20,277 nucleotides of DNA from Gemmatimonadota bacterium (GTDB taxonomy: Bacteria; ARS69), in assembly GCA_030747075.1 (NCBI GenBank), contig JASLLL010000037.1:1-20277 (forward strand). The letters run 5' to 3'. Position 1 is the stretch's first letter; each line of letters starts with the position of its first letter. The notes below the pieces were generated by a model. That model did no database searches. It was not told where the DNA came from and saw nothing but the letters and a program-made list of their open reading frames with translations. The position numbers and the translations under genes were made by a program. Positions 2,373 to 20,277 of the stretch are shown piece after piece.

Positions 2373-3302
2373 CTAGAAGTGCAGCCCAAGGCCGTAGTGG
2401 ATCGTCGCGTCCATGACCGGATGGTGGGTATAGGTCACATCCAGCTTCGCCATGCCGAAGTTCAGCCCCACGCCAACATCGAGCAGGTTGGGTTTCGTCT
2501 GCGCACCGACTCGAATCACGAGCGGCTTCGAGACTTCAAACTCCATTCCGCCATGGAACTGGATCTCCTGCCCCAACTGTTTCTCCACCTCGAATGCCGT
2601 GATCACGCCATCGTAGGGCCGGTAGGCCATGCCGCCTGACACACGCTGCGGCAGATCCACGCCGACCGGATCACCCATGCTCGGATTGTTCAGGTTCTCC
2701 ACGAAGAACCCCGCCGTCGTTCGTTCACGCAGTTGCGCCACGAACCCGATGTCCAGTCCGACTGTGGTCTCCGATCCCAGGTCGAAACCGGTCACGGAAA
2801 CCGTGGGGTAGTCCAGGTTGTAGATGTTCACCGAGTAGCCGAACGCCAGTCCCGAGGAAAGGTCTCTCATCAGGTCAAACGCGTGCGAGAAAGTGAGCGT
2901 TCTCTCCACCTCCAGCACGGTGTCCAGATAGTCCACGCGAAAATCCGAATACCCCACGCCCACGGTGCCCCAACCCTGCACGGGAGTCGAATACGCGAAG
3001 AGATTCACACGGCTGAACGGCATATCGAACGGGCGAAACATGGAGAGATAGGCATTCCGACCCTCCGTGTTCACAAGTCCCGCCGGATTGTAGAAGACAC
3101 CGGTGGCCTCGCTTGACAGTCCGGCATAGCACCCGCCCAGCCCACGGGCTCTCGGGCTGACTTCCAGGTCATCGAAGACTGCCCCAGCCGATGCAGCCTG
3201 AAGAACCACGAGGAGCAGCGCAGTCAGAAGACACCTTCCGCTCCGGAATCGAATCAAGTGAACACCTCCCTTGCGAAAGGAAGAAGCGCGCACGCAGCTC
3301 AT
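2373..3302 (-). CDS. PorV/UPF0164-like outer-membrane beta-barrel protein
   Basis: 309 codons from ATG 3302, or 294 from TTG 3257. After a signal peptide (IRFRSGRCLLTALLLVV, cleavage near AGA/VFDD) comes the family hallmark: SPRARGLGGCYAGL, then EATGVFYNPAGL. The rest is amphipathic strands typical of FadL-fold barrels, closing with HYGLGLHF and its terminal aromatic residue. In Bacteroidetes, PorV shuttles cargo carrying C-terminal sorting domains; other members of this broad family have no known role. Two starts are each supported by GGAGG: ATG 3302 overlaps the upstream stop as ATGA with 6-nt spacing; TTG 3257 has 7-nt spacing and gives the more conventional signal peptide. Stop is TAG. 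It lies between an OB/lamin-tail exoprotein and the HhH barrel, so it may help export or anchor operon products. The family call is firm; the role is inferred. Confidence 0.8.
   Translation of the reverse strand: MSCVRASSFRKGGVHLIRFRSGRCLLTALLLVVLQAASAGAVFDDLEVSPRARGLGGCYAGLSSEATGVFYNPAGLVNTEGRNAYLSMFRPFDMPFSRVNLFAYSTPVQGWGTVGVGYSDFRVDYLDTVLEVERTLTFSHAFDLMRDLSSGLAFGYSVNIYNLDYPTVSVTGFDLGSETTVGLDIGFVAQLRERTTAGFFVENLNNPSMGDPVGVDLPQRVSGGMAYRPYDGVITAFEVEKQLGQEIQFHGGMEFEVSKPLVIRVGAQTKPNLLDVGVGLNFGMAKLDVTYTHHPVMDATIHYGLGLHF
3265..3269 (-). promoter_or_regulatory. Internal Shine-Dalgarno for alternative TTG start of PorV-like gene
   Basis: GGAGG on the minus strand, 7 nt before TTG 3257, which begins a textbook signal peptide (Met-IRFRSGR then the hydrophobic core). 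A second GGAGG (3309-3313) sits 6 nt before ATG 3302. The gene therefore has two equally good initiation sites 45 nt apart in the same frame. Confidence 0.5.
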
Positions 3303-13439: not shown

Positions 13440-15137
13440 TTACCGAATCAGCACGACGCGAGCCGCGGCTTCTTCTTCGCCCACGCGGAGCCGGGCAAAG
13501 TACACCCCCGAGGCCACTGCCCTTCCCGAAGGGTCGGTCCCGTCCCAGGCGCACTCGCGTGATCCTGCCTGTGCCGGTCCGTCGAAGAGGTGCCTCACAA
13601 GCCTCCCTGTCGCGTCATAAAGAGCCAGGTGCGCCCGTGCGCCCGCATGCTCTGCCGCGATGTCAAAGACCACAACCGGCGTCGCGCTCCCCGATCCCCG
13701 CACGCGGAGGAAGTGGCGATCCGGCACCGTTTCCGGCGCACCGACAACGCCGCTCCCCGCCGTGTAGAGATAGTTCTTCGTCCCGGTGTCCTGCACGCCC
13801 GAATACACCAGCACTGCCTCGGAGTGGGTCGTCCCAAGCTGCGGAAGTGCCAGCGTTCCCCGCTGCTGTCCGTCAAGGACCATGTCCACGACTTCCGTCG
13901 GATTCGTCGCGTCCAGCAACATGGCACGCACGGAGAAGCGGTTGTTGTCGCTGCCGTCAAAGCCCATGTGCGGAGCCGGACACCCGGTGAATCGTGCGTA
14001 GTCCGCGGCCCACGGCTTCACGCGCTGTTCGACCGAATCCACGGGACACGCCGTATGCTGGCCGATCGTGCCGAACGGCGGGAGCGTCTCTCCCACATAC
14101 CCGAATCGGCCGTCCCCGATCGATGTGTCATCCAGGAAGTTCGCCACAACCCAGTCGCGGAACACCGCCTCAAAGTCCTCGGTGTATCCCTGCGCGGAAA
14201 GCACCGCATCAATGCCCGCCGTCGAGTTGGCGGGGTGTGCCACCAGCGAAAGGACCGATGACTGCCCTCCGTACCTCTCGTAGAAGTAGAGGCTGAACAG
14301 GTAGCTCTTGATGTAGTCGCGCCAGTACCCGCTGAAGTTCGTCAGGTTCTTGTCCGGGTCTCCCGGGAAATCGGAGATGGTGTCCGGATGCCCGTAGAGC
14401 CACATCGCCAACTCGGCCAGTCCCTCGTCCAGCCACGCGTATTCGTCCATGTCGTAGTTGTAGTGAATGAGGTGTTCGAACTCGTGCGCGAGAACCGCGG
14501 TAAGAAAGTCCCCCGCCGGATCATGAATGCCACAGTTCATGTACACGACATCGCACTCGTTGGAACTGAACGCACCCATTCCGTCGCACGCCTGATCAAA
14601 GCCCCAGAAGAACCCGTCCGACGACACATCAAACTGGTAATACAAGACGAAGATCCGGGGGTTCTAGTCAATGACATCCGGCGGATCGCCGAAGTGGGAG
14701 GTGTTCAGGTCCCAGATTCCCTGCGTCGGATAGGGCCCAATGCTCGTGTTGTCGAAGTGCTCGACGATGGAGTCGACCTGCGCCTGAGTCATGTTCACAT
14801 TCCACTGCGAATCCTCGACGACGATGTAGCAGTTCGCCCCCATTCCACGGACGGTGCAGGGCTGGAGCGTCGCCGTCGGCATTCCCGCAAGGCTCCAGAT
14901 GTACCAGTCCCAGGTATCGCCGACCTGCGGATTCGGCGGCGGTCCCACGGGTGTCCCTGCGCAGGGAGCGCGAAGCGCCGTCTCCCCCGGGGCGGCCCAC
15001 GCTTCCTCTCCGACGAACTCGCGCAGTTTGGGGGTGGCACACCGAATGGTTTCCGGTCGATCCACTGCCCACGCGGTGGCCGCTGCAAAAAGAAGCATCC
15101 CCGCGATTCCAGCCCCGCACACTCGATGTCGCAACAT
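13440..15137 (-). pseudogene. Secreted gluzincin metalloprotease (HEXXH) interrupted by an in-frame TAG
   Basis: Both halves share one frame: ATG 15137 to TAG 14664-14666 (157 residues), then open through to TAA 13440 (about 565 residues in all). The N-terminal part has a signal peptide (MLRHRVCGAGIAGMLLFAAATAWA) and a propeptide-like region. The part after TAG, starting NPRIFVLYYQFD, holds HEFEH (14472-14486) and, 16 residues later, the Glu of WLDEGLAELA: a gluzincin zinc site like that of M30-type peptidases. The last 80 residues are a FlgD-like Ig module (YDATGRLVRHLFDG, SGVYFARLRV, ending RVVLIR). The downstream half has no ribosome site near its first possible start (TTG 14645) and no signal peptide, so it is unlikely to work alone. 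TAG serves as a normal stop in three other genes here. A disabled gene, a sequencing error or amber readthrough are the options. It lies 26 nt after the lyase-like gene. Confidence 0.8.
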
Positions 15138-15163: not shown

Positions 15164-18100
15164 TCAATGCTCCGTGGGAGCGGATCCCGTTTCCGGGAAG
15201 ATCCCGCCTGTGAATGTGAAACTACCCGACACCGATGCGAGGTTGCCTTCTGCGTCGGAGACCCAGATCTGCCATACATAAGTGGCGTCCTGCACCAGGT
15301 CCGCAAGTGCGGCCTGGAATGCCACGCCCGGCGAGTCGGAGGAGGCCAGCGCGCAGACCCGTTCATCGATGGAGCGCTCGCCCCAGCGAAGCACCCCGTA
15401 AGCGGCGGAGGTGGTCGTGAAGTCCACAGACGCCGACGACGGCCCCTGCGTCCAGAGGATGTCCTCCACGGCGAGCGCACCGGTCGCGCCTCCGCCAGCG
15501 GTCGCCGTGGGGGAGTTGGAGAGCCCGCCGATATTTCCGAAGTCATCCACGGCGCGCACCGCAAAGGCCAGCGTTTCTCCCGGAGGCAGCCCCCCGGCCA
15601 CCACAAGGTCCACCTGTCCCGCCACCCCCGGTTGCGGAAGATTGCCCACCGGCAGGGACGCGTCCCAGTCCGCCTCGGTCTGTATCGGGGTGGAACTCCG
15701 CCGCATCAGGTACGCGGTCGCACGCCCGCTCATTCCGTCATCCCCGGGGGCCGTCCACCACAGCGCGACTTCGCCCTCGCCCGCGCCGGTCAATACCGCA
15801 AGGTCTTCCACAGCCCCCGGGGGCACCGTATCCACTCCCCCGCCGGAAGTGGCCTCCGCCATCCACTCATGTCCGGACCCCGCCAATACCTGATGCACCT
15901 TGACCTGCATGTACTCCAAACGCGGGCAGGAGTGGCACCACGGGTAGGAAGAGCCATCTTCGAACGCGATGCGGCCGATGTCATAATAGCGTGCCCGGGG
16001 CGCCGGATCCGTCGCCCGCCGGAAGGCGGCGATCATGGCGTCGGATCCGCGCACGGTCCACATGTTCACATTGTTCCCGCCGGGGACATTCGTCCCGTCC
16101 CCCTCTGTCTGATAGTGAAAGTACCCGGGTTCGGAACCCGCACGATCCACCCAGGCCCGGTCCTCCATGAAGTCCGCATACGCCAGAAGCGATGCCACCG
16201 CCTCCGTCTCCACGACTCCCAGCTCCGATTCGATCTCATCCGCAAAGCGCCCGAGATTCCGCATGAGTATGGCGATCATCCACGGCTTGCACCGCCAGGT
16301 TCCGGACCAGTGGTTCTGCACAAACTCCTTGGTGTCCGCATGGCTCTCGGTCACGATCTTCCGGGCCGCATCCAGGTAGCGCGTATCCCAAGTGTGAAAG
16401 TACGCATCCAGCATGACCTGAAGCGCATGCCCGGGGCCCCGTTCCTCGCCTGTGGTTCCACTGATCCCCGGCATCCCCGGACCGTTCTCCACGCGCCATG
16501 CGACGCTCCCGGCCACTTCCATGGCCGCTTCCAACACATTCCGATCTCCGCTCAGGTAGTACCAGACGAGCATCCCGCGATTCCAGGTGTGCGCCATGTT
16601 CGGAGAGTCTCCCCGATGGGGATCGTCGATGCCGCTGTTGCCGTGCCCGGTGTGGTTCCACATCCCGTTCCACAGCCACGGAAGCGGACCCTCCTCGACA
16701 TGGTAGACATCGATGTCCGCCTGATGCTCATTCCCCTCCCTCGCGAGCTTCCACCACTTCCCGGAAAGGTCATCGTCCAGGCCCGCCGTCCGCAGCGCCT
16801 GCTGGATGAAGACGAAGCCGGTATCGTACTCAAGATTGTTGGCCGCATTGTTCGTATTGGGAGGATCGCCGCCGCCTTCGAAGTCGCTCCACAGGTCTCC
16901 GAAATCCTGCCACCCGTAGACATCGGCATCTTCCCGAATGTCCAGAAACCCCTGCGCACCCAGGGCATTGTGCTGTTCGTAGTCGGAAAAGGCCGCCGCA
17001 TCCCACGGCACAAGATCGTTCAGTGCATGCGTGTCTCCCGTCCACTGCGCAGCCGGGACCGCGCGGAGCGGATCCTGAAATGCCGCGGACACGCGCGAGA
17101 CATCACCCGCGACTTCATCTCCGGTGTGAAAGTGGAAGAGCGCCCAGTGGGTCTTTCGCTCGCCCGGACGATGCTCAAAAGCCGTGGCAAAGTCCCGCGG
17201 CATAAACCCGACGGAGACGGTCCCGTCTACGGCCACGGAGATTCGGTCCGGGAAGTTCTCCCAGAAGTCCCGGATGGAAACGGCGAGTCCCCGCGCGCCG
17301 TCGTTGATATCGACGAACCCGTCCGCACGGTCTCCAGCCAGCACGACCCATGACGCGTGCCCCGCCTGATAGCCGCGGAAGGAAGTCCCCTCCGTCACAT
17401 ACCAGTACGGACCGCCGCTGGAATCCTGATAGAGCCACGCCTGTGCCGTCAGATCTCCCGTGGCGACGGACTCCCCGCGTACTCCCTGGATTGCGTATCG
17501 GGGCGCGCCCGCCAGATTCACGCGTGTCACCAGCGAGAGATCTTCGAAGAGGAGACTGTTCTCCGCGCCCCCCACCGGTCCCTGCCCCGCCAGCCAACGG
17601 CACTTGGGCTGCGATCCATTGCTGTAGGTCGCCGTGGCCTGCCCGTTCGTCTGAGAGAACTGCACGCGAACATCACTCCGGCCACGCCACGCATGGATCC
17701 TCCCGGAGAACTCCAGATGCTCGCCCGCCATTCCGTCGTGGATTCCGCGGAAATGAATCACCGCGCGAATCGGTCCCGACTCCTCCACTTCCAGAACTTC
17801 CAGCGCGCTGACCGAGGAGAGATACGCCTGTCCCCCGGTTCCCTCCACGATCGAGCCATTGAGCACATCCGATGCAATCATCTTCTCGGACGCCTCAAAG
17901 ACACGATCGCCGTTCGTGTCCAGCCAGACTTCATCGAAGAGTGTGAAGGAGTCTCCGCGCACGGTGAAGCGGAGCGGCCCCGTGTCCACGGTGACGGCTC
18001 CGCCCGCCTCCACGACCGAGAGCCCCGCAGGCGGCGGGCTCCCCGTGCCATCGACAAGCCGGTACACAGAAGTCCCCCACGCGCTCACCGTCGCGGGGAA

Positions 18101-18361
18101 AGACACTTGAAGCCACTTGACCGAGCCGTCCCTCCAGGTGGCAAGCGGGAGAAACTGCGCGTCCACCCCCTCGATCGCCACATCACTTCCGGAGAGGACT
18201 TCTCCTTTGGGCAGGGGGATTCCACTGGTCACGATCTCCCCGGCTCGCGCGACACCCGCCGTCTCGCGAACGGTCAGCGGAACATCGAGCGCATCGGCCG
18301 TCCCCGCAAGCGCCAGAGACGCCAGGAGCAGTGCCGCGCCGACTGGCTTGCACGCTTTCAT
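15164..18361 (-). CDS. Secreted PcRGLX/YetA-like protein (rhamnogalacturonan-lyase type) with C-terminal FN3-like domains
   Basis: 1065 residues from ATG 18361; the earlier in-frame stretch to 18478 lies in the upstream gene. Signal peptide 1-24 (MKACKPVGAALLLASLALAGTADA). Residues 25-165 resemble the RIFT-barrel domain of the PcRGLX/YetA family (VPLTVRETAGVARAGEIVTS, then LPLATWRDGSVKWLQVSFPA). A central beta-rich part runs to about 470. An alpha/alpha-toroid-like part follows to about 840, rich in Trp, His and Asn (LWNGMWNHTGHGNSG, AHTWNRGMLVWYYLSGD). Two FN3-like domains close the protein (VPPGAVEDLAVL ... LAFAVRAVDDFGNIGG, and ALAVEDILWTQGPSSASVDF). Fungal PcRGLX cleaves rhamnogalacturonan; YetA and most relatives are uncharacterised, so the substrate is an inference. 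Unlike its neighbours it has no FlgD-like ending. It overlaps the upstream gene by ATGA; its own ribosome site is weak, which suggests coupled translation. Confidence 0.82.
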   Translation of the reverse strand: MKACKPVGAALLLASLALAGTADALDVPLTVRETAGVARAGEIVTSGIPLPKGEVLSGSDVAIEGVDAQFLPLATWRDGSVKWLQVSFPATVSAWGTSVYRLVDGTGSPPPAGLSVVEAGGAVTVDTGPLRFTVRGDSFTLFDEVWLDTNGDRVFEASEKMIASDVLNGSIVEGTGGQAYLSSVSALEVLEVEESGPIRAVIHFRGIHDGMAGEHLEFSGRIHAWRGRSDVRVQFSQTNGQATATYSNGSQPKCRWLAGQGPVGGAENSLLFEDLSLVTRVNLAGAPRYAIQGVRGESVATGDLTAQAWLYQDSSGGPYWYVTEGTSFRGYQAGHASWVVLAGDRADGFVDINDGARGLAVSIRDFWENFPDRISVAVDGTVSVGFMPRDFATAFEHRPGERKTHWALFHFHTGDEVAGDVSRVSAAFQDPLRAVPAAQWTGDTHALNDLVPWDAAAFSDYEQHNALGAQGFLDIREDADVYGWQDFGDLWSDFEGGGDPPNTNNAANNLEYDTGFVFIQQALRTAGLDDDLSGKWWKLAREGNEHQADIDVYHVEEGPLPWLWNGMWNHTGHGNSGIDDPHRGDSPNMAHTWNRGMLVWYYLSGDRNVLEAAMEVAGSVAWRVENGPGMPGISGTTGEERGPGHALQVMLDAYFHTWDTRYLDAARKIVTESHADTKEFVQNHWSGTWRCKPWMIAILMRNLGRFADEIESELGVVETEAVASLLAYADFMEDRAWVDRAGSEPGYFHYQTEGDGTNVPGGNNVNMWTVRGSDAMIAAFRRATDPAPRARYYDIGRIAFEDGSSYPWCHSCPRLEYMQVKVHQVLAGSGHEWMAEATSGGGVDTVPPGAVEDLAVLTGAGEGEVALWWTAPGDDGMSGRATAYLMRRSSTPIQTEADWDASLPVGNLPQPGVAGQVDLVVAGGLPPGETLAFAVRAVDDFGNIGGLSNSPTATAGGGATGALAVEDILWTQGPSSASVDFTTTSAAYGVLRWGERSIDERVCALASSDSPGVAFQAALADLVQDATYVWQIWVSDAEGNLASVSGSFTFTGGIFPETGSAPTEH

Positions 18362-20277
18362 CTCAGCCGCACCACCTTCCGCGTTCGCACCTGATCCACC
18401 CCTTCGAATCGCACAAAGTAGACTCCCGCCGCCGCGCGCTTCCCGGATGAGTCGTTTCCCCGCCACGACACGCTCCAACGGCCGGGCTCCGCCAACCCGT
18501 CCAGCAGCGTGACCACCCGCCGACCCGTGACATCAAACACATCCATCTTCACGCGTCCTCCGGGTGACGGCACATCGTACGCCAGCTCCGTCAAGGTGTG
18601 GAACGGATTCGGCCGGACCGGATGGAGCGCAAACTGCAGGGGAGTGGAATCAGCCGGAGCGGAGGTGATGTTCGAGGCGCTCACAAAGTCACTTTCCGTG
18701 CCGGAAGAGTCGACGCAGGAGATCCGATACCATGCCATCGAAACGGGCGGGCCGGGATCGACCCAGGAGAGTCCGGCCGTCTCGTGAACCTGCGTCTCGG
18801 GCGACGGGACGAACGAAACGGAAGAGCCCCGGTGTACTCGATAAAGCACGACATCGGCCTCCTCCGATGCGTTCCATGAAAGGCGCGCGCCTTCACCGGT
18901 GTCCGGCGTGATCGCAAACCCGGATGGCGGCATGGGTGGAGGGTCGTCGCTATTCGCCCATTCCACCGCAAGCTGTGAGCAGATCGCGTTCTGGTCCGGT
19001 CCCAGAACGAAGTGGGTGGATCGCCAGAGGAGCCCCTCCCCGGGAATCGCCAGGTCCACCCAGGACCGGTCAGGAGAGACTCCCTGCCAGGTGAATCCCC
19101 CGTCAGCGCTCGCTTCCCACGCCACAAGACCGCTCTGCTCGGAGCGAAGGCGCACGGAAGAAATGAGCGGCCCGCCTGTTGAGTCAAACGCACGCACAAT
19201 CCGCAGTCCGGACGCCCCGTCCGCGACATGGATGTCGTCTCCCGAAGCCGCGAGATCCTGCACGGATTCCGGGAAAGTCACCTCCCCCCGGTACAGGGGA
19301 GCGCCGGGCTGAGACACATCCAGCATGATGACCCGGGGGCCGTCCCCCACAAACGCGTGCCACCGATGGACCACGACCGCATCCGCGTCGAGGGCGGTGG
19401 GCCATGTCGCGACCAGCAAGGGAACTTCCGGATCCGCGATGTTGAATATGGAGAGCCCCCCCGGCCCGTCCGCGACATAGGCATGATCGCCGGAGAGCGC
19501 CACATCCCGCGCCGAACCGGGCGAGCGGACGGTCCCCAGGGGTTCCGGGCCGTCCGCATCTCGTACAGAGAAGAGGTGAATCCCGTAGCCCCGGTCCAGT
19601 GCAACCAGAACCTCGTTTTCCGCCACGACCCCGCGCGCATCGGCCACGCTTCCCACCAGTTCCTCCAGGAAGGGGCTGGCCGGAGAGCTCGCATCCACCA
19701 GCAGAAGCCCGCCTGTCCCGTCGGCGACATAGACCTGGTCCTCCAGCGGAAATGTCGCCCGGGCCTCCCCGGAAGTGTCCAGCGAACCCACCGTGGTCGG
19801 CGAGAGCGGATTCGCCACATCCACGATCGCAATCCCCGCAGTCCCGTTCGCCACGAAAACCAGACTGCCGATCGTCGAAAGTCCGTAAGCGGTCGCTGTC
19901 GTGGGCCATGTCCCGGCAATGGCCGGAGCCGCCGGATCCTGCAAGTCCACGACCTGCATGCCTTCCGTTCCGTCAGCGACGAATGCAACCTGCCCCGCAA
20001 TCGCCACGCCGCTCGCAAACCCCGGTGTCTGAACCGACCCGACTTCGGTGGGCGAGATGGCGCCCCGTCCCCCCGAGGGAGTCGCGATCACCACCGACTG
20101 GCCCCGATTCGCCGCCTGATCCAGCGACCCCGGACCGGACACCTGAATGGAAGCCAGCCCCGCCGAGTGGTCGGCCACGAACACATGATCCGTCCCGACA
20201 GCGACGCCGTAAGACCTGCCCTGCGTATCCAGCGAATCCACGCACACCGGCGCGAACGGGTCCGTCAGGTCGTAGAC
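18358..20277 (-). CDS. LVIVD-repeat beta-propeller exoprotein with FN3 and FlgD-like C-terminus (5' end outside window)
   Basis: The frame stays open to the right edge, so the true start lies beyond 20277; 639 residues are visible. About eight LVIVD-type repeats of roughly 42 residues fill 18358-distal positions 1-345, each with an F/YVADG core (VAFVADGTEGMQVVDLQDP, LVFVANGTAGIAIVDVANP, AYVADGPGGLSIFNIADP). They probably form a propeller. Next come a beta-rich region with WEASADGGFTW (about 355-430), an FN3 domain (about 435-535, GARLSWNASEEADVVLYRVHR) and a FlgD-like Ig module (about 545-639, PVRPNPFHTLTELAYDVP, FDVTGRRVVTLLDG, AAGVYFVRFEG, ending KVVRLR). LVIVD proteins are surface or secreted proteins of unknown function. 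The stop overlaps the next start as ATGA. Confidence 0.85.
   Translation of the reverse strand, partial: VYDLTDPFAPVCVDSLDTQGRSYGVAVGTDHVFVADHSAGLASIQVSGPGSLDQAANRGQSVVIATPSGGRGAISPTEVGSVQTPGFASGVAIAGQVAFVADGTEGMQVVDLQDPAAPAIAGTWPTTATAYGLSTIGSLVFVANGTAGIAIVDVANPLSPTTVGSLDTSGEARATFPLEDQVYVADGTGGLLLVDASSPASPFLEELVGSVADARGVVAENEVLVALDRGYGIHLFSVRDADGPEPLGTVRSPGSARDVALSGDHAYVADGPGGLSIFNIADPEVPLLVATWPTALDADAVVVHRWHAFVGDGPRVIMLDVSQPGAPLYRGEVTFPESVQDLAASGDDIHVADGASGLRIVRAFDSTGGPLISSVRLRSEQSGLVAWEASADGGFTWQGVSPDRSWVDLAIPGEGLLWRSTHFVLGPDQNAICSQLAVEWANSDDPPPMPPSGFAITPDTGEGARLSWNASEEADVVLYRVHRGSSVSFVPSPETQVHETAGLSWVDPGPPVSMAWYRISCVDSSGTESDFVSASNITSAPADSTPLQFALHPVRPNPFHTLTELAYDVPSPGGRVKMDVFDVTGRRVVTLLDGLAEPGRWSVSWRGNDSSGKRAAAGVYFVRFEGVDQVRTRKVVRLR

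Follow-up and report, generated by a model that had tools for sequence, protein, structure and literature searches.

An in-frame TAG codon interrupts the gene of a putative secreted metalloprotease in the draft genome of a Gemmatimonadota bacterium, and it probably (at a rough probability of 0.6) represents a real and recent nonsense substitution. The window, which is the whole stretch of 20,277 nucleotides that was analysed, is contig 37 of a 61-contig draft genome of 2.67 Mb, rated 100% complete and 0.96% contaminated. On its minus strand 566 codons follow one another in one frame from 15137 to 13440, and the sole internal stop among them is the TAG at codon 158. The gene, its two parts and the features within them are located here:

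13440..15137, minus strand: the whole interrupted metalloprotease gene, from ATG (15137-15135) to TAA (13442-13440) in a single frame
14664..14666, minus strand: the in-frame TAG, codon 158, which is CAG (Gln) in the two nearest homologs and a Gly codon in the other nine
14667..15137, minus strand: the first fragment, 157 residues, with a signal-peptide-like start and the N-terminal piece of the conserved protease module
13440..14663, minus strand: the second part, 407 residues, with the HExxH...E site, the remainder of the module and the C-terminal FlgD-like domain
14472..14486, minus strand: the HEFEH zinc-binding motif, residues 218-222, after the stop
14406..14435, minus strand: WLDEGLAELA, residues 235-244, with the presumed third zinc ligand Glu238, after the stop
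13500..13664, minus strand: a FlgD_ig domain, residues 492-546 (Pfam, E 1.4e-9)
14643..14645, minus strand: TTG, codon 165, the first possible restart codon past the stop, with no Shine-Dalgarno-like sequence ahead of it

The original prediction described a lone TAG in an unshifted frame within a gene that otherwise looked undamaged, and its reading was exact on the minus strand down to the flanking codons (GTC ATT GAC TAG AAC CCC CGG ATC, with no frameshift); the frame holds this one stop, and the catalytic residues are intact. The prediction had also assigned HEFEH, WLDEGLAELA and a FlgD-like end to the second part and the signal peptide to the first part only, and these assignments were borne out: the signal-peptide-like start is confined to the first part, and the 407 residues of the second carry no signal peptide. 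A Pfam search of the 157-residue fragment returned no match. The few bases upstream of the gene's ATG read GGAAGGGG. The gene directly upstream, which ends 27 bases before that ATG (minus strand, 15164-18478), has as its product a large exported protein, 1104 amino acids long, of no clear family.

Species genomes of bacteria and archaea were scanned, which gave 11 named homologs, hosted by Candidatus Eisenbacteria, Krumholzibacteriota, Coatesbacteria and others, and in all 11 of them the open reading frame (ORF) is continuous through the site. One of the two closest, L091 (JALGZR010000084.1; the same gene as G002 and L003), comes from a relative in the same family; it is 58% identical to the joined frame over residues 6-563 and aligns there free of stops. 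Because of this alignment and the continuity of every homolog, the two pieces are, on comparative grounds, one gene and not two ORFs that happen to lie side by side, as had been predicted; homologs that end naturally at this point and are followed by a separate protease gene were not found among the 11. The other close relative is L092 (JAGVPR010000210.1, Candidatus Eisenbacteria), and both resemble the window gene in having a signal-peptide-like start, the conserved block, a FlgD-like end and the motifs HEFEH and [WV]DEG[LM]A at 58-60% identity; they differ from it in that their ORF is uninterrupted and has CAG in place of TAG. The gene neighbourhoods of L091 and L092 differ from one another and from that of the window, and upstream of the homolog in L091 lies a trimethylamine-methyltransferase-like gene (named from its translation).

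Aligning homologs to see which residue sits at the stop, as the original prediction had advised, gave Gln (CAG) in these two closest sequences and Gly in the remaining nine. The TAG thus differs from the CAG of its nearest relatives (~60% identical) by one transition, and the position varies within the family and thus tolerates different residues. The many stops that one homolog, L093, had seemed to contain proved spurious: the join was made by a tail repeat lying upstream, and in a different frame the gene is undamaged. Read in its own frame, L093 is continuous and has PPNPLDGQERIF at the TAG position, giving Gly.

The two parts could in principle be a true split, that is, two working proteins of which the second arises by translational restart past the stop, and a TTG does stand 18 bases past it, from which the second ORF would run for 401 amino acids. 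There is, however, no Shine-Dalgarno-like sequence ahead of TTG 14645 or of the next start-like codons, and the product would carry no signal peptide, so that restart is unlikely; the cut also falls within a conserved module, and no homolog is split. Two working proteins are therefore a highly improbable outcome.

Where the stop falls within the protein was judged from conservation among the homologs. Mean conservation is at least 0.57 across residues ~61-345 and mostly 0.7-0.86, and residues 141-160, around the stop, reach 0.85 and are among the best conserved stretches of the block. Since residues 61-345 are uniformly conserved, the first part belongs to the protease module, and by this measure the stop cuts inside a conserved module that bears the HExxH site. 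The original prediction had placed the stop between propeptide-like and catalytic parts, a division that was not recovered; residues 61-345 form a single conserved block that contains the stop. In the alignment of 11 sequences (A4) His218, Glu219 and His222 are invariant, as are Glu238 and Gly239, so that the HExxH is accompanied by the conserved downstream Glu that is taken as the mark of the gluzincin type. The product is accordingly described as a putative secreted HExxH zinc metalloprotease of gluzincin type. Its best family match is the MXAN_6640 putative metalloprotease model (NF045524), in which residues 211-384 align with profile positions 110-290 (E 2.1e-9) at 37.5 bits, where the curated cut-off is 140, and this model likewise has ~110 positions ahead of the HExxH region. 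By profile similarity the window protein is a distant relative of the MXAN_6640 family and, under the cut-off rule, no member of it. A suggested likeness of the module to M30 (hyicolysin) was dropped, as no Pfam match supports it. The PDB sequence search gave weak FlgD matches only. AlphaFold2 modelled the read-through protein poorly (pLDDT 52.5, pTM 0.36), so that the model cannot place the stop in the fold and a PDB fold search with it is uninformative for the protease module.

TAG is an ordinary working stop in this genome, because release factor RF1 is intact, PylS and a tRNA with anticodon CUA are lacking, and TAG ends housekeeping genes. RF1 scores above its curated cut-off and retains the PAT and GGQ motifs, a PylS profile search of the genome gave weak matches only, all below the cut-off, and none of the 45 tRNAs found with the Rfam model and read with ARAGORN has the anticodon CUA. 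Stop usage was sampled on 20 stretches of 20 kb, and 73 of 268 long ORFs in ~420 kb terminate in TAG. A sucC-like ORF has its TAG immediately ahead of sucD and a fabH-like ORF just ahead of fabD, and in purH-like and valS-like ORFs a terminal TAG likewise precedes the next gene (all names read from translations). In the window itself TAG does close the three genes with ends at 2373, 8111 and 9390, as had been pointed out in the original prediction, whose judgement that general reassignment is unlikely is upheld by the intact RF1 and by the housekeeping genes that end at TAG right before the next gene. Its alternative of amber suppression was searched for and lost ground, with 0 of 45 tRNAs carrying CUA, no PylS over the cut-off and RF1 intact. 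An in-frame TAG within a conserved gene is what this case shares with amber recoding, whether by pyrrolysine or in TAG-to-Gln codes, and what would speak for a genome-wide reassignment or suppression that inserts pyrrolysine, Gln or another residue; in contrast to recoded genomes, this one has neither PylS nor a CUA tRNA, its RF1 is intact, and TAG is a normal stop that in housekeeping genes directly precedes the next gene. Such a reassignment can be discounted almost entirely.

Bacteria in general read through UAG at a low level. At this site a near-cognate tRNA, such as tRNA-Gln, might decode the codon at low frequency and yield some full-length protease; the sequence past the stop is conserved, and Gln is the residue found in the closest relatives. 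Functional readthrough of this kind is nevertheless improbable, as the stop is absent from every relative and hence no conserved readthrough signal is evident, RF1 is intact, there is no CUA tRNA, and a recent origin of the stop explains the conservation past it equally well. Readthrough at a useful rate, by which the cell would make a little of the full-length protease and much of the short fragment, is likewise improbable.

The two marks of a nonsense interruption are both present, in that the homologs are continuous with a sense codon at the site and TAG is a stop in this organism. Under the favoured reading of a nonsense allele, one transition would have converted a Gln codon to TAG at codon 158, RF1 would end translation there, and the result would be a secreted-type fragment of 157 residues; as this fragment has neither the active site nor the FlgD-like domain of the C-terminus, the gene would effectively be inactivated in the population that was sequenced. 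Three points are inferred: the real presence of the base in cells, the codon ancestral to this lineage, and the loss of protease activity. The Gln state in particular is drawn from relatives only ~60% identical, with Gly in the others.

The age of the event was addressed through decay past the stop. Of the columns that are invariant in the other sequences, 0 of 34 before the stop and 2 of 65 after it, in the catalytic region, have changed in the window (F211 for Tyr and L236 for Val); in L091, with its intact ORF, lineage-specific changes affect 5 of 68 such columns after the stop position. Identity to relatives is similar on both sides, and third-position G+C is 0.76 before and 0.78 after the stop. 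There is thus no excess of changes past the stop of the kind that relaxed constraint in an old pseudogene would leave, and the event would therefore be recent, or else the base is an error. These were the leading readings from the outset, and the absence of excess decay fits both.

The lack of decay fits a consensus error equally well. A draft-assembly base error, whether by miscall, low-coverage consensus or strain mixture, would mean that the gene of the living population is intact; the intact frame is just one base away, the gene is otherwise undamaged, and the genome is a draft of 61 contigs. A survey of 126,564 genomes (PMC11017572) found that internal stops in drafts often stem from faulty assembly and that they vary with coverage, platform and assembler. 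The present gene resembles the ordinary or spurious pseudogenes of that survey in its single internal stop, its otherwise intact state and its draft setting; it differs from them in that the relatives' sense codon and the genome's codon usage were checked here, and it is known from the assembly, not from reads. Against rampant errors speaks that most boundaries flagged in the ~420 kb are normal and that no second interruption was recognised there, by a scan that recovers ~16-56% of planted positions depending on flank length and whose flagged sites were partly read. Two more TAGs and one TGA flagged by the first scan all proved to be normal gene boundaries (sucC/sucD, fabH/fabD and prenyltransferase-like/ispE-like), and at each of six sites inspected from the wider scan one gene ended and another began after it. 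A base error is a tentative second explanation, and a real allele is favoured over it.

Caution is in order when an uncultured bacterium shows a lone TAG within a conserved gene, as the codon could pass for recoding; here plain termination is evident from the relatives' codon, the tRNA set, RF1 and the stop codons that end housekeeping genes. Either the gene is broken in an ordinary way or the sequence is in error, and a novel reading of the code is very unlikely. If the base is real, one secreted protease would recently have been lost from a genome in which ~100 proteins share its tail; the FlgD-like C-terminal domain has ~100 matches in these 2.67 Mb. The genome also encodes an SprA homolog and a PorU-like sortase, both above curated cut-offs, and on the strength of such matches a type IX-like secretion system seems to be in use by this small phylum. 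It is plausible that the FlgD-like tail serves this type IX-like secretion and would be lost along with the active site. The window also contains, at 2373-3302 on the minus strand, a gene whose product resembles outer-membrane proteins of the PorV family (NF033709, E 6.9e-12, below the cut-off) and possibly belongs to the same secretion route.
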